DNA of 64,000 bases from NCBI GenBank assembly GCA_006386115.1, contig VFIW01000098.1, positions 62,001 through 126,000 on the forward strand. Direction: 5' to 3'. Source of the stretch: Globisporangium splendens. Its lineage: Eukaryota > Oomycota > Peronosporomycetes > Pythiales > Pythiaceae. The position numbers were made by a program, and so were the translations under genes. Position 1 is the first letter of the stretch; every line of letters starts with the position of its first letter. Below the pieces are notes generated by a model that was not told the DNA's origin, made no database searches, and worked only from the letters and a program-made list of their open reading frames with translations. Of the stretch, positions 19,022-29,498 are shown piece after piece.

Positions 19022-19789
19022 TTACTGCGGAGCCACCGTCTGGATAAACTTGAGCGCCGTGTGCCACGCCTTTGCGACCGCAGCCTTCACCTCTGGCTTC
19101 TCCACGTCGCCTCGATTCACCCACCCGTGGTTCATGTCTGGAAAGTCGATCACCTTGCTGTGAGCGCTCGTCTCGGACTTTTCCGACAGAATCTTGATCA
19201 CACTGCCGTTCTCACGCACAAAAGCTGGGTCATCGCCAGCAGCCAACAGAAGCTGCGGCACCGTGATGCGTTCGGTCAATTTCTCGGCTGCTCCTTCGCC
19301 GTTGATCATGTTTTCAACGCGCCACGAAGGGTGGAACGACACGTTGCCCTTGATAATCGGGTTCGGCAAAGCAGACTGGCGCGCGCCAACGTAGCCACCC
19401 CAGCAGTAGCCGTACGAAGCGATGCTCTCGACCTTGAACTCGCTCTGGAGGAACTCGATGGCGTCCTGCAAGTGGACCGAGAGCACATCTTCGAAGGTGT
19501 TCTTCGCGAGCCAGTTGCCGAATTCCGACATTCTCTCTGGCGCCATGTAGTCGCCGCTGGTCAGATCCACGACGGCAACGACATAACCGAGTTGCGCAAG
19601 CGCCTCAGCATCGGCCTTGGTGCGGCCGCTGTTGAGACCGAAGATGTCTGGGAGCGCGAGGAGACCGACCTTGGTGGGAGTCGCCGGCTGCGCCACGAAG
19701 AGCGACGTGCTCTTGAACTGCTTGGTGGTGCCGACGACCGCGGCGGCGCCTTGCACGGCAGGGAGGGCAGTCACGGGGCAGCAGCTCAT
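19022..19789 (-). CDS. dienelactone hydrolase family protein, copy 5
   Basis: Predicted 255 residues, starting MSCCPVTALP and ending IQTVAPQ. It is intact, with Cys in SYGYCWGGYVGA, the acid in AAGDDPAF and His in DMNHGWVNRGD. The ATG at 19789 matches the start of the other copies and has an initiator-like motif 24-40 bp upstream. The 3' half shares a near-identical tract with the nonsense copy 3. The antisense strand is also open for a long distance here, which I take as a GC-driven shadow. Confidence 0.88.
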   Translation of the reverse strand: MSCCPVTALPAVQGAAAVVGTTKQFKSTSLFVAQPATPTKVGLLALPDIFGLNSGRTKADAEALAQLGYVVAVVDLTSGDYMAPERMSEFGNWLAKNTFEDVLSVHLQDAIEFLQSEFKVESIASYGYCWGGYVGARQSALPNPIIKGNVSFHPSWRVENMINGEGAAEKLTERITVPQLLLAAGDDPAFVRENGSVIKILSEKSETSAHSKVIDFPDMNHGWVNRGDVEKPEVKAAVAKAWHTALKFIQTVAPQ

Positions 19790-19812
19790 GCTTGTTGCTT
19801 GTGGGTACTGGC

Positions 19813-19829
19813 GGTGGTTGAGGAATGCG
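19813..19829 (-). promoter_or_regulatory. initiator-like motif for DLH copy 5
   Basis: On the minus strand the site reads CGCATTCCTCAACCACC, resembling the oomycete Inr core CATTYCTCAA. It lies 24-40 bp upstream of the start codon. Confidence 0.35.
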
Positions 19830-20296
19830 GCCGTCGGACAGGGACGGCGCCTCTGGCAAGGCGAGTGGCTGGAGGGATGCGCTGGCAGAGCGGATGTGTG
19901 TGCAGAAGGCAATGCCAGGGTTCGTGTCGACTGATGCGGCAACATGGGATGGCATGCAGTGATTCCGTAATCCGAGGCTGCACAGTAAACGCCACTTTGA
20001 CTGGAGCAACAGTGCAACATCCACAATTTAACTGGTGCCAATTGGTTATCGAAGTGTACAAATATTTGATAAATGTATACTTTATAGAACACATTATTAT
20101 ACTTTTAACTATAACATACAATGTTAGAGGATACCGTATTAAGAATTACAGCAGTGAATGAATACTGAATTGAAGTTAAAGAAGTACGTTATGGAGGAGT
20201 GCATTGCATTTGCAGTTGAGACGAGGTGCACACGAAGATGGTTGCTGCCACGTGTGACTTGCCGCTCAGCTAGGGAGCTAACGGGTGCATTCGCAT
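19830..20296. other. intergenic
   Basis: Gap of about 470 bp, GC-rich on the left and AT-rich around 20040-20180. I see no gene. Confidence 0.5.
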
Positions 20297-21088
20297 TTAT
20301 GCCAGTAGAACAGTCCATACGTCGGTCGATGCCTGCTCCGTTGTCGCCGCTTGCAATTTGCAATTCGTGTTGCTGCGCCTGGCAAACCCCACGATCGTCG
20401 TATTGGCATTCAGCAGTGGCGTGGACACCGCGTCGGACACGTTCCCCCACGTGGACAGCGCTTCCGCAATAGACGTGTTGGACGCTCTGGTGCTCAGCAG
20501 CGCGAACACTTGGTCGTGGAATCCGAATCGCTCGGCACTTGGTTCTTGGTGGAGCTCTGTGTTCGTTGCTGGCGGCAAAGATGGTGGACACGCTTTCACC
20601 ATCTCGTTCGCTGCGAGAACCAACCGCGCGTCCAGTGCAAGCCGCGGTTTGTTGTACGCTACGCGGTAGAAATTGAGCACTTGGAGCATGGACGCCGCGT
20701 CTTCTGCACTAAGACCGTCGTCGTTACTGCTTTTTCTGAGGGCACCTGTGTCAAAATCGACCCCGTTGACCTCGTCCACCGTGAACTTGTCCTTCACGAA
20801 GCCGCAGTTCGACACCGTGCTCGCATACGCTTGACCCTCGCGTCCCTGCTTGAGCCAGCACGTCCCCCCAAGATACGCCGTCCACGTCCAGTGCGTGCAG
20901 CCATCGACGATTGTACAAATGCCGCCGCAGTGCTCGCTCGCCGCCTGCTGGTTGATGAGGTCGTGGCCGTGGAAGTCGCAGCCCAAGTCCCACGACACGC
21001 GACCCGCGCTGCCGTCGTGCCACGCGTGCGCTGTGGCGAGCAGCAGCGCCGCCACAAGTGCGCACATTTGATCTCGGCGACTAGCCAT
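20297..21088 (-). CDS. secreted PAN/Apple plus CAP (SCP-like) domain protein
   Basis: Predicted 263 residues. A signal peptide covers about residues 1-22 (cleavage near TAHA/WHDG). A PAN/Apple-like Cys domain occupies about 28-85 (DLGCDFHGHDL, CGGICTIVDGCTHWTW, GGTCWLK), a fold that commonly binds carbohydrate or protein. A CAP/SCP-like domain follows from about 130 (MLQVLNFYRVAYNKPRLALD, then LVLAANEMVKAC), of the short YkwD-like type rather than the long animal CRISP type. Several N-glycosylation sequons occur near the C-terminus (NTS, NVS, NTT). A secreted apoplastic or cell-wall role is an inference. The ATG at 21088 is favoured because the signal peptide starts there. No intron is evident. 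Confidence 0.75.
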   Translation of the reverse strand: MASRRDQMCALVAALLLATAHAWHDGSAGRVSWDLGCDFHGHDLINQQAASEHCGGICTIVDGCTHWTWTAYLGGTCWLKQGREGQAYASTVSNCGFVKDKFTVDEVNGVDFDTGALRKSSNDDGLSAEDAASMLQVLNFYRVAYNKPRLALDARLVLAANEMVKACPPSLPPATNTELHQEPSAERFGFHDQVFALLSTRASNTSIAEALSTWGNVSDAVSTPLLNANTTIVGFARRSNTNCKLQAATTEQASTDVWTVLLA

Positions 21089-21673: not shown

Positions 21674-22323
21674 TGTAAGAGGGCGCTGTTCACAACAGTC
21701 CCTCAAACACGGCACACACGCTTGTGCCAGAGGAAGCGATCTCCCGACTTGGAGGGAGGAAGAAGACTTGAGGGCTTGGAGGAAAATTTGCAACTGAATT
21801 GAAAAGGTTATGGTTCCTGTCGCTACTTACAAATGAACCCCAAGGGATCCTACACGTTTTATAACTAAAACCTAAACATGCACAATAAAACCTATGAATC
21901 TGATATATAAAACCTTGGGTACACTGAGGTTGAACCCACGGGATCTTCGAGAAGCTTGAACTTGAAGTCCCGTGGAAAATTCCCTGCAAAGTGATTGGCT
22001 ACAGCCACTCACTTTAGGTGGCAGAGACACGTCGGTCTCATCACCAGTGCAGTTTCCCAAGTAGGAACCATCACTCAGTACTTGATTAGTACATGGATGT
22101 CATCACTCTGTACTGATTAGTACATGTGAACAACATTCTGCACTGATCAGCACAGAGAGCGCTCGTGACGTCATGGGATGACGTCACATGTGCATGTGGG
22201 GACTGTCGTACTGTAATCCCTTTGTTAATTGTCTCTCCACAATGCACACTGAAGGTGGTGTGTGGCACACTAGATCTGGGAACAGATCCACCTTCATGTA
22301 ATGGCTAGGTATAGCCCATTACA
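21674..22323 (-). repeat. 3' LTR, full length (650 bp)
   Basis: The LTR is bounded by TGTAA...TTACA, a 5-bp terminal inverted repeat shared with the other two LTR copies in the window. One end forms a hairpin-like dyad (ATGTAATGGCTA with TAGCCCATTACAT). Inside are three diverged dyads of the type GTACTGATTAGTAC and two perfect CRE octamers. The inserted LTR at 26974-27622 is a close match in inverted orientation. Confidence 0.9.
22166..22186. promoter_or_regulatory. paired CRE sites (TGACGTCA x2) in the 3' LTR
   Basis: Two perfect palindromic TGACGTCA octamers sit at 22166-22173 and 22179-22186, 5 bp apart. TGACGTCA is the classical binding site of CREB/ATF-type bZIP dimers. The same pair is kept in the inserted LTR. 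They lie about 215-235 bp upstream of the antisense ORF. Confidence 0.6.
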
Positions 22324-22340
22324 TCATCCCCTCCTTAAAG
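22324..22340 (-). other. polypurine tract next to 3' LTR
   Basis: Read on the element's sense strand, AAGGAGGGGATGA directly abuts the 3' LTR. This is the expected place and composition for the plus-strand primer of reverse transcription. Confidence 0.7.
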
Positions 22341-22380: not shown

Positions 22381-22396
22381 GTTCACTTTCCAATCG
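22381..22396 (+). promoter_or_regulatory. oomycete initiator-like motif before the antisense ORF
   Basis: GTTCACTTTCCAATCG closely resembles the motif before PLD gene 1 (GCTCACTTTCCGATTG at 57382). It faces the antisense ORF and ends only 3 bp before its ATG, so the 5'UTR would be very short if transcription starts here. Confidence 0.4.
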
Positions 22397-22399
22397 GCC

Positions 22400-23467
22400 A
22401 TGAAGCGACCAAGTGACCAAGTGAACCAAGATGAAGAACGTCCTTTGCCCAAGCGGCAGAGAACGGTTCCAGAACTCTTTGACGTTACCTCCATTCTCAA
22501 CCGAGATGGAGACAAGGAGTTCTACATGGAACGTTTCTTCAGTTGGCGTCGGATCAACAACCGTGATCCGAACCAACCCATCGCAGCCCAGAGAGACTCA
22601 TGGCGAACATTTGTTCGTCTTGAGAACGAGAACCAAATGGAGCGTCTTCTTCGTCGCGGCAACGCTCGTGCCGAAAGAAGAACTCCTGCTGACGACAGAG
22701 CGAATCCCAGCTCTGGTCGTCGTAGTGTCGCTCCTGGCGACGCTACAAGTGGTTCTCGTAGCTGCGGACCACGTCGGGAACATCAGACTCCATCGTCTGC
22801 CGTGGTTCCCACGTGTCCGAGCTCGGTGGATATCCACGCCACCGAACTCTGTAGAAGCGTTGATGGTTCAACCGCTTCTTTCCTCGACGATGAGTCGGCC
22901 GATCCTCATGATCAACAATCGACTCAACCACCCAGCGATGCTCTCCCTGAGAGTCTAACAACGGGGGTGGGGCTGAACGAGAAAACGATTGAGCGACTCT
23001 GGAAGTGGAAGAGTGCTCATCGCGGGCAAATCGAGGCTTTGCAGCAGCGTTGTTCGACGCTTGAGGAACGCTGCGAGAGTCTCGAGAACCTTGTCGCCGA
23101 TCACGAGTCGAGGATCGATGATCTGACAGAAGGTTCTGCCCAGTGTTCGGCTTTGGAGTCCCGTTTCGAGGAACGGTTCCAACAGGTTCAGGACGAACTT
23201 GTTCGACTCCGGAAGAACGAGAAGTCTCGTGAGTTGGCTCACGATCGCCTTTTGCGCTCTGTGGAAGAGGCAGGTTCGGCTTTTGAGGTACTTCGTGGTG
23301 AGTACCATTCTCGTCTTCAAGCGCTGGAGTCGGTGAAGGACCAATCCTTCGACGTCCTGCAACTCTTGTACGCCGAGAAGAATCTCCAGAGCGACGAGCT
23401 GTTTGCTCTTCGCAATCAAGTGGAGAAGCTTCAAGATCAGCTTGATCGTTTGCGGAAGATCTCGTAG
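22400..23467 (+). CDS. antisense coiled-coil ORF overlapping the pol 3' end
   Basis: Predicted 355 residues on the strand opposite to pol. The first 114 codons lie beyond the pol stop and include a bipartite nuclear-localisation-like sequence (KRPS at the start, PLPKRQR about 15 residues later). A charged segment with aromatics (EFYMERFFSWRRINNRD) follows. Codons about 115-190 lie opposite the chromodomain and are low complexity. Residues about 191-355 form a long, convincing coiled coil (IEALQQRCSTLEERCESLEN, later LRNQVEKLQDQLDRLRKIS). The stop codon lies just where the conserved integrase C-terminal module (GRLKPYLP) ends on the other strand. No homolog is known to me. The alternative is an unusually long GC-driven shadow, but the regular heptads and the basic N-terminus argue against that. 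Confidence 0.6.
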   Translation: MKRPSDQVNQDEERPLPKRQRTVPELFDVTSILNRDGDKEFYMERFFSWRRINNRDPNQPIAAQRDSWRTFVRLENENQMERLLRRGNARAERRTPADDRANPSSGRRSVAPGDATSGSRSCGPRREHQTPSSAVVPTCPSSVDIHATELCRSVDGSTASFLDDESADPHDQQSTQPPSDALPESLTTGVGLNEKTIERLWKWKSAHRGQIEALQQRCSTLEERCESLENLVADHESRIDDLTEGSAQCSALESRFEERFQQVQDELVRLRKNEKSRELAHDRLLRSVEEAGSAFEVLRGEYHSRLQALESVKDQSFDVLQLLYAEKNLQSDELFALRNQVEKLQDQLDRLRKIS

Positions 23468-25770
23468 GATCCGCTGATCCGCTTGGAAGGTAAGGCTTTA
23501 GTCTACCCACATAAAATGTCGGGTGTAGACGCATGCGTGTAGGTGTGTCTAGCGTGTAGGCATCACCATTGCATTTCACTACCTTGAACGGTCCAATGAG
23601 CCTTGGCAGAAGCTTCGAGCTTCCCAAGTTGGACACTGCATGTTCAGGCAGGTTCGCCGTGCTAAGCAATACAAGATCATTGATCTTATACACTTGCTTG
23701 TTCTTCCTTCCGCTCTTGTCTGCTTGTTCCTTTTGCAGATCCTGAGCCTTTGCGATTGCGTCTCGAACAAACCTCACAACGGCTTGTCTCCTCACAACAA
23801 AGTCATCGACTTGCTGTGCCTCACGACTAGTGATGTCGTTGAGGGGTTTCATCGAGTCAAAGTTGGCTTTTAACTCGACAACAGCATTCAGGTCATACGA
23901 CGACTGCGGCTTATTGCCTTTAGCCGTAGTCCCTCCCCCACTTAAGGTAGAGACCTCACCCATTATGGAAGCAGGCACTCGAGGGTGAATGCCATAGTTC
24001 ACATAAAATGGAGAGTGACCTGTCGAGACATGTGTGGAGTTGTTCAACGCAAACTCGGCAAGAGGGAGAAACTCACTCCACTCTTTGAAAGACGTTGCGT
24101 AGCTGCGCAACACGTCTTCGAGGACACGATTCACTCGTTCAGTTTGACCATCCGTTTCAGGATGTGCCGCTGTTGACATGGACAACTTGGTGTCCAGAAG
24201 TCCGAACAGTGCACGCCAAAACTTGGACGTAAACCGAGTGTCACGGTCAGACACGATCTCAACGGGCAGGCCATGCAGACGGAATACGACGTCTACAAAG
24301 ACCTTGGCCGTCATTTCGGCTGAGATCTTGTCCGAAACCGGCGCAAGATGGACCATCTTGCTGAATCGGTCCACAAACACAAGGATGCCATTGCGTCCGT
24401 GTTTGTCTCGAGGAAGTCCGAATATGAAATCCACACTCACAGACTTCCAACTGTCCGATGGGACAGCCAATGAACGAAGTGGTGCCTGTGCGGAACCAGA
24501 AGGTTTCGCTCGTTGGCAGATCTCGCAAGTCCTCACATACTTGCGCACCCACTTGTACATGTGTGGCCAGTAGTAATCCCGGGAAAGACTGAGAAACGTT
24601 TTCTCACGTCCGAGATGGCCACCCGAAGGACTGTCATGATACTCATACAAGAGTCGATGACGCAGACCTTCGTCGTTGGGAACAACAACCCTTGCTGTAT
24701 CCCCTTGTTCAACCGCATAGTACAACAACCCATTGTGTACTCGGAAGCGGTGAACTCGCGACCTTGTGCGTGACGGAAGACCTTGCAGTGCTTTGTCCGA
24801 AGGGTCCTTGAAGTGCTTCAACAAGTCTTGACATGTTTCGTCAGACTTGTACCCTTTGACGATCTCTTCTCGCACTGTAGTCGTTGCTTGCACTGCGATC
24901 GCTTGAATGTCTTCACAGAGTCGACACGCTCCGTCCGTGTCTTCACTCTTGGTCTTCGGATCGTAATCCGGACGTCTTGACAGCGCATCGGCTAAGATGT
25001 TCGTCTTGCCTGGCTTGTAGTGTACAATAAAGTTGTACTCTGCAAAGAAGGAGAACCATCTCGCCATTCTTTGCGACAAATGAGGAGTCTTCACTGCCGT
25101 ACGCAGCGACGCATGATCTGTGTAGATCGCAAAGCACTCCTCACCAAGCAGGTAGACACGGAACTTGACCAAAGAATACTTCATCGCCAGAAGTTCTTTG
25201 TCATGAACTGGGTAGTTCCGTTCTGCGGGTCGGAGTTGTCGTGACTGATACGACACAACTCGCTCATGACCCTCATCATCGTGTTGCATCAACGCGCAAC
25301 CGATGGCATAGTCGCTTGCATCGCAAACCACATGAAAAGGCTTGTCGTGGTTTGCAATTGCCAGCACGGGAGCTTCTCGCAGACTCCTCTTCACTTCGGC
25401 AAATGCCATTTGATGGTCACTGGACCACTCCCACTCAATGTCCTTCTTCAGGAGCTGTGTGAGCGGTTGCACCAACGCTGCATAATTGCGCGTGTACTTG
25501 TGCAAGTAGTTGGCCAGACCCAGCCATTGTCTCAGCTGTTTGACATTCTGAGGCACAGGCCAATCGTCAATAGCTTTGACCTTCTCCGGATCAACTCGAA
25601 CGCCATGCTTTCCCACAAAGCAGCCGAGAACGGGGATCTCTGGTGCAAAGAATATGCACTTCTTCAAGTTTGCGTAGAGTTTGTTCTCTCGCATGACCTG
25701 GAAGACTTGACGAAGATGATCGAGATGAACATCGACATCAGATTTCCCATTCGCGGCCTTACTGTGAACG
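22743..25770 (-). CDS. pol segment: RNase H, integrase, chromodomain
   Basis: Open frame of about 1000 codons downstream of the RT frameshift. It begins with the end of the RT thumb/connection (NKLYANLKKCIF). RNase H follows with its acidic residues in CDASDYAIG, HDKELLA and YTDHASL. The integrase has an HHCC zinc finger (HDSPSGGHLG, later CEIC) and a D,D-35-E core (SVDFIFGLP, IVSDRDTRF, TERVNRVLE). The GPF/Y-like C-terminal module reads LIGPFKVV and GRLKPYLP. A Ser/Arg/Pro-rich linker of about 170 residues leads to a chromodomain at the C-terminus (WVVESIVDHE, then YRVRWRGYPPSSDTWEP), which in this family directs insertion to marked chromatin. Linker and chromodomain overlap the antisense ORF. 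Within this segment the frame is intact. Confidence 0.9.
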
Positions 25771-26973
25771 AAATATCGTCAAAGTAACTCGGTGCAAACC
25801 CTCTCAATGGACGAAGTAGATTCGTGACCATCCTATTGAAAGTCGCAGGAGCGTTCTTCAGTCCCTGTGGCATCACTAACCATTCCCACAGCATACCACT
25901 CGGGGTACTCACTGCAGTTAGTGGTACATCATCTTCGCGCATTCGAATCTGATAGAACCCATCTTTCAGATCGATAGCACTAAAGAGAGTGCTGCCAACC
26001 ATTCCATCAAGGATCATATCCTTGCGTGGAACCGGAGTTTGGGCTGGAATGGTAGCGTCGTTCAGCTTGTTGAAGGCGTGAACGATGCGCCAACCACCAG
26101 TTGCCTTCTTCACACAGAAGGTTGGGCTACAATGTGGAGACTTGCTCTCTCGCACATGCCCAGCCTTGGCACGTTGCGCAAAGAACTCGTCGATCGCAAC
26201 GACTTGTTCTCTTGGCAACGGCCACTGTCGTGTGATACAATACTTCGTGCCAGGAAGTATGTCAATCTCATGACGAACGCCTCTATCGAATGGCAGTTCG
26301 TCCGGCACCTTGTCTGGGAATATGTCCTCATATTCCTTGACAAGTTCATACACGGGGTTCGTCTTGAGGGCGTCCCACGACTGCTCCTCGAACCTCTCCT
26401 TCCGTGTCTTCTCATCGAACACTTCAGCCTCCGTTGCTGATACCGTGTTGATGTCTTCTGCATCGTCAACATCGACGATCATGCAGACCTGCGAAATTTC
26501 GCCTTTCGCTAGGCTACGCTTCAGCGTCTTCTTGCTCATCCACGGCAAGGAAACCAAATCTTCAACAGAGCTTGGAGGATTTTCAATCTTCACGTGACGG
26601 ATTATATCCACGTCACCATCTTCATTGTAGACCGCGATATTCGCAAACTCGCTTGAAATGTCTTGTGCTTGGACACTTCCTTCGTCACCGTAACTTGTAC
26701 CTTGATCAAGAGCACACGGGACACTCTTCTTGCTGGTCTTCTTCTTCTTCTCTCGGGATGGCTCTTCGGCTCTTTTCCCATTTGTTTCTTCCACGCACAT
26801 CGCCTCACTCTTAGGGTCGATGGCAAAGGAGACAGTCTTTTGTTGGCGCCTGACTGCTCCACCTCCAGCAGTCTTCTTCAAGATGGGTACCGCTCGTGAA
26901 CATGGGGGGCCATCGCACACCGCAATATCACGAGGGTCATCTGGGATCTCTTCCACAGATGTATACACCCACA
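25771..26973 (-). pseudogene. pol segment: reverse transcriptase, frameshifted
   Basis: About 400 codons cover the protease-RT linker and RT fingers and palm. Visible motifs are CITRQWPLPREQ, HCSPTFCVKKATGGWR, FSAIDLKDGFYQI, MPQGLKNAPATFNR and the catalytic YFDDI. Immediately after YFDDI one base is missing relative to the expected frame (within the T run near 25771-25776), so translation leaves the pol frame and stops about 35 codons later. The upstream end is truncated by the reverse-oriented LTR at 26974-27622. The ATG at its very start is created by the LTR's last base and is not a natural start. Confidence 0.85.
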
Positions 26974-27622
26974 TGTAATGGGCTATACTTAGCCATTACA
27001 TGAAGGTGGATCTGTTCTCAGATCTAGTGTGCCGCACACCACCTTCAGTGTGCATTGTGGAGAGACAATTAACAAAGGGATTACAGTACGACAGTCCCCA
27101 CATGCACATGTGACGTCATCCCATGACGTCACGAGCGCTCCCTGTGCTGATCAGTGCAGAATGTTGTTCACATGTACTAATCAGTACAGAGTGATGACAT
27201 CCATGTACTAATCAAGTGCTGAGTGATGGTTCCTACTTGGGAAACTGCACTGGTGATGAGACCGACGTGTCTCTGCCACCTAAAGTGAGTGGCTGTAGCC
27301 AATCACTTTGCAGGGAATTTTCCACAGGACTTCAAGTTCAAGTTTCCAGAAGATCCCGTAGGTTCAACCTCAGTGTACCCAAAGTTTTATATATCAGATT
27401 CATAGGTTTTATTGTGCATGTTTAGGTTTTAGTTATAAAAGCTGTAGGATCCCTTGGGGTTCATTTACAAGTAGCGACAGGAACCATAAGCATTTCAATT
27501 CAGTTGCAATTTTACCTTCAAGCCTCAAGTCTTCTTCCTCCCTCTAAGTCGGGAGATCGCTTCCTCTGGCACAAGCGTGTGTGCCGTGTTTTGGGGACTG
27601 TTGTGAACAGCGCCCTCTTACA
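26974..27622 (+). repeat. LTR inserted in reverse orientation inside pol (649 bp)
   Basis: Near-identical reverse complement of the 3' LTR at 21674-22323, again bounded by TGTAA...TTACA. It lies between the protease and RT coding segments of the element. No internal sequence accompanies it, so it behaves as a solo LTR. If 5 bp were duplicated on insertion, the net gain (654 bp) would keep the frame, but the flanking pentamers I read do not match, so clean transposition is not proven. It retains the paired CRE sites and the terminal hairpin. Confidence 0.85.
27111..27131. promoter_or_regulatory. paired CRE sites in the inserted LTR
   Basis: TGACGTCA occurs at 27111-27118 and again at 27124-27131 with a 5-bp spacer, as in the 3' LTR. 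Both octamers are unmutated although other positions differ between the two LTRs. Confidence 0.6.
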
Positions 27623-29304: not shown

Positions 29305-29498
29305 TGTAAAAGGGCGCTGTTCCAAACAGTCCCTTAAACACGGCACACATGCTTGTGCCAGAGGAAGCGATCTCCCGACTTAGAGGGAGGAAGAAGACTT
29401 GAGTACTTGAAGGAAAATTTGCTCGCTGAAGGTGATTTGTGTCACACTAGATGTGGATAGATCCACCTTCATGTAATGGCTGGTTTTAGCCATTTTAC
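29305..29498 (-). repeat. 5' LTR with large internal deletion (about 194 bp)
   Basis: It is in the same orientation as the 3' LTR. It matches the first about 125 bp (TGTAAAAGGGCGCTGTTC...) and the last about 70 bp (...GATCCACCTTCATGTAATGG), with about 450 bp missing between. The lost part includes the CRE pair and all dyads. Its outer end is degenerate (CATTTTAC instead of CCATTACA). Confidence 0.8.

Follow-up and report, generated by a model that had tools for sequence, protein, structure and literature searches.

The window analysed here is a 64 kb stretch (contig C3, 62001-126000) of the genome of Globisporangium splendens (53.3 Mb in 195 contigs). Its minus strand carries a Ty3/Gypsy element: the 3' LTR is followed by a polypurine tract and, beyond this, by pol ORFs encoding reverse transcriptase (RT), RNase H, integrase, an SH3_Tf2-1 domain and a chromodomain, and by a gag ORF. 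Pfam matches to RVT_1, RT_RNaseH, rve, Chromo and Retrotrans_gag, together with the flanking LTRs, place it among the chromodomain-bearing Ty3/Gypsy elements. Opposite the 3' end of pol, on the plus strand, lies an open reading frame of 355 codons (Table 1); the upstream in-frame ATG at 22301 falls inside the LTR. The window also holds a minus-strand ORF at 20297-21088, presumably encoding a secreted CAP/SCP-type protein.

Table 1. Coordinates of the element, the antisense reading frame and nearby signals (window positions, except where pol residues are given).
Feature	Position	Strand	Evidence
Antisense ORF, 355 codons and stop	22400..23467	+	ORF listing, copies, selection, reshuffle null
Basic NLS-like stretch near N terminus	22442..22462	+	Sequence only
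N-terminal three-helix domain, residues 24-92, pol-free, conserved	22469..22675	+	AlphaFold2; omega
Low-confidence part of the model, residues 93-183, largely opposite chromodomain	22676..22948	+	pLDDT <50 over most; omega 1.13
Predicted long helices/coiled coil, residues 184-206 and 208-354, opposite pol linker	22949..23461	+	pLDDT, heptad power, omega 0.44
pol ORF: RNase H, integrase, SH3_Tf2-1, chromodomain	22743..25694	-	ORF listing and Pfam
SH3_Tf2-1 of pol	pol residues 673-735	-	Pfam
Chromodomain of pol, residues 921-982	22749..22934	-	Pfam PF00385; pol omega 0.44
pol linker, SH3_Tf2-1 to chromodomain, residues 736-920	22935..23489	-	Near neutral as pol sequence
Polypurine tract	22324..22336	-	Sequence; purine run in 20/20 aligned family representatives
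3' LTR, outer limit approximate	21674..22323	-	Repeat pairs
5' LTR of window copy, internally deleted	29305..29498	-	Repeat pairs
Initiator INR (YCAYTYY), TCACTTT	22383..22389	+	Predicted start 22385, 15 nt before ATG
Two TGACGTCA sites (CRE) in LTR, starts 22166 and 22179, 13 nt apart	22166..22186	.	Sequence

The first-pass annotation of this DNA had described a plus-strand frame that overlaps the minus-strand pol by about 725 bp, leaves 114 codons pol-free, sets first codon positions against each other and ends near the end of the integrase module, and the coordinates agree on each point. Codons 1-114 fall in the interval that separates pol from the LTR, the overlap of 725 bp places about two thirds of the ORF opposite pol, and the stop is close to the SH3_Tf2-1 domain. 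The phase computed from the coordinates sets antisense position 1 against pol position 1, position 2 against pol position 3 and position 3 against pol position 2. Antisense position 2 therefore faces the pol wobble base and antisense position 3 faces pol position 2, so that the two proteins make opposite predictions on which base may vary.

A protein search of the genome with the antisense product gave 114 matches of 85-100% identity, 89 without an internal stop and 25 with stops; other query proteins led to a second family, about 58-61% identical, and to intermediates. Eighty loci were fetched and eight duplicates dropped, leaving 72 copies, mostly top-scoring and hence biased towards intact frames, of which 64 have no antisense stop and eight have stops. 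The two remaining frames on the antisense strand contain on average 6.7 and 20.2 stops in these 72 copies. In the same phase, the 300 codons past the ORF contain a mean of 14.7 stops (none of 58 copies is open there), and in the window itself 25 stops fall within the 743 pol codons outside the overlap. The stops in the eight copies mark no subfamily on the tree. At antisense codons 69 and 73, CGA has become TGA in two and four copies, respectively. No two of these copies are nearest neighbours on the tree, and the C-to-T changes appear to be recurrent. An extra pol stop lies within the overlap in six of the 72 copies and the ATG is missing in two; set beside the eight copies that have antisense stops, these numbers indicate that the two frames have been preserved to a similar degree in the overlap.

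The openness of the frame was compared with reshuffle nulls in which synonymous pol codons were redrawn with the ORF's own stop left out (20,000 trials each). Codons drawn from the rest of pol gave a mean of 6.3 antisense stops and a stop-free frame in 14 of 20,000 trials, and codons permuted inside the overlap gave a mean of 8.3 stops and no stop-free frame in 20,000. Sixty-six of the 72 copies have at least 200 unbroken pol codons, and in 65 of these the antisense frame is stop-free over that stretch, a number that permutation over the 66 copies reached in 2 of 32,500 trials. The frame is thus open beyond what pol constraint would lead one to expect, the comparison that the annotation had called for, and the related copies are for the most part stop-free, the opposite of the stop-riddled copies that it had named as a refutation.

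Selection was measured as omega, from substitutions counted by parsimony on a tree of the 72 related copies. With p-values that treat changes as independent and are too optimistic, omega of the antisense frame is 0.42 in the pol-free part (246 N and 220 S changes; binomial p ~3e-20); opposite the chromodomain it is 1.13, and 0.44 for pol (p 1e-9); opposite the linker it is 0.44 (p 7e-28), and 1.55 for pol. The other frames range from 1.19 to 2.07 in the pol-free part (the shadow frame, which shares the wobble base, has 0.59), from 0.67 to 2.04 opposite the chromodomain and from 1.19 to 1.63 opposite the linker (shadow frame 0.55). For codons 1-78 the antisense value is 0.43 on internal and 0.44 on terminal branches. 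Windows of 30 codons locate the switch of constraint, and the switch back, at residues 121-180. When each frame is conditioned on change in the other, the values for the chromodomain are 0.43 (internal) and 0.32 (terminal) for pol and 0.71 and 0.62 for the antisense frame; for the linker they are 0.54 and 0.40 for the antisense frame and 1.07 and 1.01 for pol. From these conditioned values, the amino acids of the linker are nearly free to vary for pol but not for the antisense protein.

The same switch is visible in the variability of antisense codon positions 1/2/3, averaged over 15 family representatives, which is 0.16/0.15/0.25 in the pol-free part, 0.10/0.16/0.08 opposite the chromodomain, and 0.14/0.12/0.25 and 0.13/0.09/0.24 in two segments opposite the linker. 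The most variable antisense position thus moves from 2 opposite the chromodomain to 3 opposite the linker. Family A alone gives the same pattern; the little-diverged family B alone gives a weaker one, and its last coil segment has no excess at position 3 (0.016/0.019/0.015). Both frames are open in related copies and each is selected somewhere in the overlap, as befits an overlapping gene pair. Judged by these substitution patterns, the antisense frame is almost certainly a selected protein-coding gene.

The predicted protein was modelled with AlphaFold2 on an alignment of 22 sequences (overall pTM 0.30). Helices are predicted at residues 39-52, 61-76 and 80-92 (block pLDDT of about 80-91), and the N-terminal domain modelled alone has a pLDDT of 76. 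Most of residues 93-183, facing the chromodomain, have a pLDDT below 50. Two further helices, at residues 184-206 and 208-354, have a pLDDT mostly above 95 (block pLDDT 86-98 from residue 191), giving about 170 confident helical residues opposite the pol linker. Residues 191-355 have a strong 3.5-residue periodicity, which was reached in none of 2,000 shuffles. The confidence profile and the periodicity thus agree with the low-complexity sequence opposite the chromodomain and the heptad coiled coil opposite the linker that the first-pass annotation had read from the translation. It had named a lack of conservation of the 114 pol-free codons as a further refutation, and these codons are conserved and under purifying selection. 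Its suggestion that the structured parts of each protein face the disordered parts of the other is upheld by the selection and confidence profiles. A Pfam scan of the antisense protein gave no family above the cut-off, and structure comparison gave no clear relative, the N-terminal three-helix domain matching no known fold; function is consequently not indicated by homology.

Conserved signals precede the gene. The oomycete initiator is described in the accessible text of PMC3599244 as YCAYTYY with transcription starting at the A. An INR lies at -17 from the ATG in 68 of the 72 copies and is absent there in four; it lies outside the LTR, with the polypurine tract on one side and the ORF on the other, and the roughly 40 nt between INR and polypurine tract differ between families. 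A single match to this motif means little because the window contains 90 and 66 matches per strand, and it is the fixed place across families that counts as evidence. On this basis the antisense gene probably has its own promoter at the INR. Within the LTR, TGACGTCA occurs as a pair; its four occurrences in the 64 kb window are all in two LTR copies (the 3' LTR and an inverted LTR at 26973-27622). Among 71 loci with enough upstream sequence, the pair is present in 57, a single site in 11 and none in three, and the pair is kept inside diverged LTR sequence. Both the Inr-like motif and the paired CREs, noted earlier in the window copy alone, are therefore conserved between families with diverged flanks.

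The antisense protein has 82 protein matches, the most distant with 44% identity across 99% of the query, and its profile has 86. All records with an NCBI name come from G. splendens, and nearly all of these are called 'hypothetical protein'; the remaining records carry generic names or none and are on short contigs from other sources. No host homologue was present among the protein and profile matches, and neither the antisense protein nor pol had a relative among the viral contigs searched. Among the pol relatives, 120 of 223 matches were listed, and 118 of the 120 allowed the SH3-chromodomain distance to be measured. All of P0087-P0092 have a distance of exactly 173 residues and linkers 33-90% identical to that of the window; P0093 and P0094 have linker similarity, at a distance that could not be measured. 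The other 112 measured proteins of the list have distances of 36 to 225 residues (one also 173) and no significant linker similarity. Dipeptides that would force an antisense stop number 15 versus 36 in shuffles when the pol tails of 101 of these 120 proteins are counted, and 409 versus 323 in an upstream control stretch; with related sequences and a count above zero, this depletion is a hint only.

A dual-coding fit was used to ask whether an antisense protein and a pol protein can share one DNA in the observed phase (19 metagenomic antisense proteins against the 120 listed pol proteins). Two of the 19 gave near-complete fits, P0078 with P0092 (235 of 235 residues) and P0047 with P0090 (235 of 237), where the median best scores over the 120 pol proteins were 9-12. 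Each of the remaining 17 gave a partial fit, and its best pol protein was in every case a member of P0087-P0092. The complete fit of P0078 implies that the overlap is also present in a metagenomic element whose antisense protein has diverged to 44% identity.

The sister pol family P0178/P0152, with a gap of 83-85 residues, was tried as a negative control and rejected in that role, since it has a same-phase antisense ORF and so counts as support. This family (pol P0178) is the nearest other chromodomain family followed, and the ORF is present at loci L081 and L082. A genome search with the sister antisense protein gave 41 matches of at least 340 residues, 28 without a stop and many in open frames of 565 codons. 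The pol-free N-terminal domains of the sister and main families align with an hhalign E of 9.4e-5 (probability 58.7, score 30; at most 17 in 60 shuffles, 10.7 reversed), and the sister domain appears to be homologous to that of the main family. A longer alignment reaches E 4e-7 and probability 92.8; it spans the chromodomain-facing part and so is not independent of pol. Dual coding of the sister coil gave a good fit only to P0152 and P0178, both from G. splendens, among the 120 listed pol proteins. A third family, represented by one degraded copy (L083 and L084), has the motifs FYIDLF, QAWxAFV and C-x6-C-x7/8-C-x2-C and a coil-like stretch in common. With homologous genes or motifs in each, the antisense gene probably predates the main, sister and third families. 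The cysteine motif, present in the sister (L081 270-1400 (-)) and third-family (L083 511-999 (-)) proteins and absent from the window protein, is possibly metal binding. Diverged loci at C19:99724, C151:53567, C115:61363, C63:28707 and C71:99106 contain open frames of 465-614 codons that match the sister protein; further families likely carry such an antisense gene.

Comparison of copies and relatives establishes that the frame is open and selected, that pol is the constrained protein at the chromodomain and the antisense product the constrained one at the linker, and that the arrangement is kept in diverged relatives. We propose that this selected frame opposite the 3' end of pol has its own initiator and encodes a coiled-coil nuclear regulator of the element, a prediction that, taken whole, we hold on balance to be probable. 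The transcript would start from the conserved INR, which lies beside the polypurine tract and close to the 3' LTR but not in it; the basic N-terminal stretch would take the protein to the nucleus, and the long helix would oligomerise. The protein would then feed back on transcription from the CRE-bearing LTR, as HTLV-1 HBZ does, without being a bZIP protein. The pol linker sequence would be a by-product of the antisense coiled coil, and pol would need only to stay open as far as the chromodomain. Considered separately, the role of nuclear regulator of the element is predicted tentatively, at somewhat less than even odds; by analogy with HBZ, transcription through the CRE-bearing LTR is the most likely single route for it. 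A broader proposal, with a chance just short of even, is that the gene belongs to an old, undescribed family of oomycete antisense regulators, with several diverged lineages in one genome, in which the coil dictates the pol linker and which, acting through the paired CREs of the LTR, would be a convergent counterpart of HBZ. Our odds for the selected gene, its own promoter and the nuclear regulator rest mainly on the selection profile.

Two other explanations would do without a functional antisense protein or make it secondary. A long antisense frame could be fortuitous, open only through the amino-acid and codon constraint on pol; length alone proves nothing in this window, where a 366-codon antisense ORF at +19061..20161 faces, in a different phase, nearly all of the 356-codon ORF at 19022-20092 (-), which we take to encode a dienelactone-hydrolase-like protein. 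Moreover, the draws of codons from the rest of pol leave the frame open rarely yet not never. The permutation nulls, in the window and over the copies, count against a fortuitous frame, as do the many stops in the same phase past the ORF, and it is already refuted by the selection on the 114 pol-free codons and the reversal at the linker, where constraint bears on the antisense protein and not on pol; we give it next to no weight. Alternatively, the antisense transcript might act as RNA, through dsRNA, silencing or interference with sense transcription, with the protein secondary, and antisense transcripts of other retroelements may do so according to the accessible text of PMC7264820. Against this stand the codon-shaped selection in the antisense frame, in both the pol-free and linker parts and apart from the shadow frame that shares the wobble base, and a protein alignment that reaches 44% identity over its full length, so that we regard an RNA role as quite improbable.

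The remaining alternatives accept the protein and concern what it does or where it came from. Instead of acting on transcription, it might serve integration or nuclear entry, either as a partner of the integrase and chromodomain or by importing the pre-integration complex. The NLS-like stretch and the long helix predicted to oligomerise would suit such a role, nuclear entry and accessory-protein functions are discussed for plant antisense ORFs in the accessible parts of PMC7264820, and nothing specific counts against it; we consider it a minority possibility, rather unlikely as matters stand. The order of events may also have been the reverse, the antisense gene being the older resident, perhaps captured, and pol having later extended across it to the chromodomain. 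A pol linker that is near neutral as pol sequence and fixed in length in the lineage would fit this, as would the N-terminal domain common to the sister family, but chromodomain pol proteins without linker similarity are common among the listed oomycete matches and no host homologue of the antisense protein is among the matches. We think this order of events unlikely; it concerns origin only and is compatible with the proposed nuclear regulator.

Antisense ORFs are known from plant Gypsy elements (Grande gene23, RIRE2 and the TRP28 proteins of Retand) and from fungal Boty, where they lie near the 3' LTR and are kept in most copies; Grande makes a nuclear product from a gene with a promoter of its own (accessible parts of PMC7264820 and PMC11963269). 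Like the G. splendens ORF, these are near the 3' LTR, conserved in most copies and without an assigned function, and the conserved INR supports a predicted promoter of its own here too. In the cases described there, however, the ORF is placed downstream of pol and ahead of the 3' LTR (within 2.9-6.6 kb of sequence in Retand), the position that characterizes aORF-3R, whereas the G. splendens ORF is mostly opposite pol, with only codons 1-114 in that interval and 725 bp overlapping pol; the word 'overlap' does not occur in the accessible text of either paper. Retand's TRP28 (PF04195) has no match in the antisense protein at E <= 1. HTLV-1 HBZ is nuclear and lowers 5' LTR expression (accessible parts of PMC10186651 and PMC8227390). 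As outlined there, it resembles the G. splendens gene in that it overlaps a sense gene in antisense at the 3' end, has a coiled coil (predicted here) at the C terminus and goes with LTR sites for CREB-type factors. It differs in that the bZIP_1 score of the G. splendens protein (E 0.45, 11.1 bits) is below the cut-off of 27.6, with no sign of a sequence relationship. HBZ-type transcripts start in the 3' LTR; the putative start here, predicted from the conserved INR, would be just outside it. As defining features such as the bZIP and TRP28 domains are lacking, we do not assign the gene to the HBZ family or to the plant aORFs.

HIV-1 ASP is likewise an antisense ORF opposite a main gene that was first predicted from sequence (PMC7835632 and PMC8781085, as far as accessible); its position, host and protein are unrelated, and the G. 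splendens ORF differs in having a pol-free third and dozens of copies, which allow a clean selection test. Chronos resembles the present element as an oomycete Ty3/Gypsy element with a chromodomain at the end of pol, and the word 'antisense' does not occur in the accessible text of its description (PMC5348765). It has an extra RNase H of archaeal/plant type, which was not found in the three scanned ORFs of the element (pol being interrupted in the window) or among the domains of P0087-P0092. The literature searched on antisense ORFs in oomycete or overlapping Gypsy elements, largely outside subscription journals and in part as accessible text, contained no pol-overlapping oomycete case. Antisense accessory ORFs as such are already known, in Gypsy elements of plants and in HTLV.

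Antisense overlapping genes are rarely demonstrated, and a 2021 review of viral overlapping genes, in its accessible part, briefly notes two experimentally validated antisense cases (PMC8227390). In this high-copy element the copies serve as dozens of natural replicates and the pol-free part as a control, and constraint passes cleanly from one strand to the other, so that the sharing of one DNA stretch by two proteins becomes directly measurable. If the protein is a regulator as proposed, HBZ-like accessory regulators arose independently in oomycete retrotransposons. Many G. splendens records named 'hypothetical protein' are products of the antisense reading frame.

The element copy in the window is probably dead, since RT and the remainder of pol are in different frames and the 5' LTR is internally deleted, yet its antisense ORF is open. 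About 456 nt are missing from the middle of this LTR, including the CRE pair, and the two surviving pieces match the 3' LTR at 92% and 84% identity. The inverted LTR copy at 26973-27622, between the RT and protease regions, is 96% identical to the 3' LTR and is probably a solo LTR inserted later. At the LTR edge (window 22294-22325) lies a near-palindrome, CATGTAATGGC...GCCCATTACAT, which is conserved between families.
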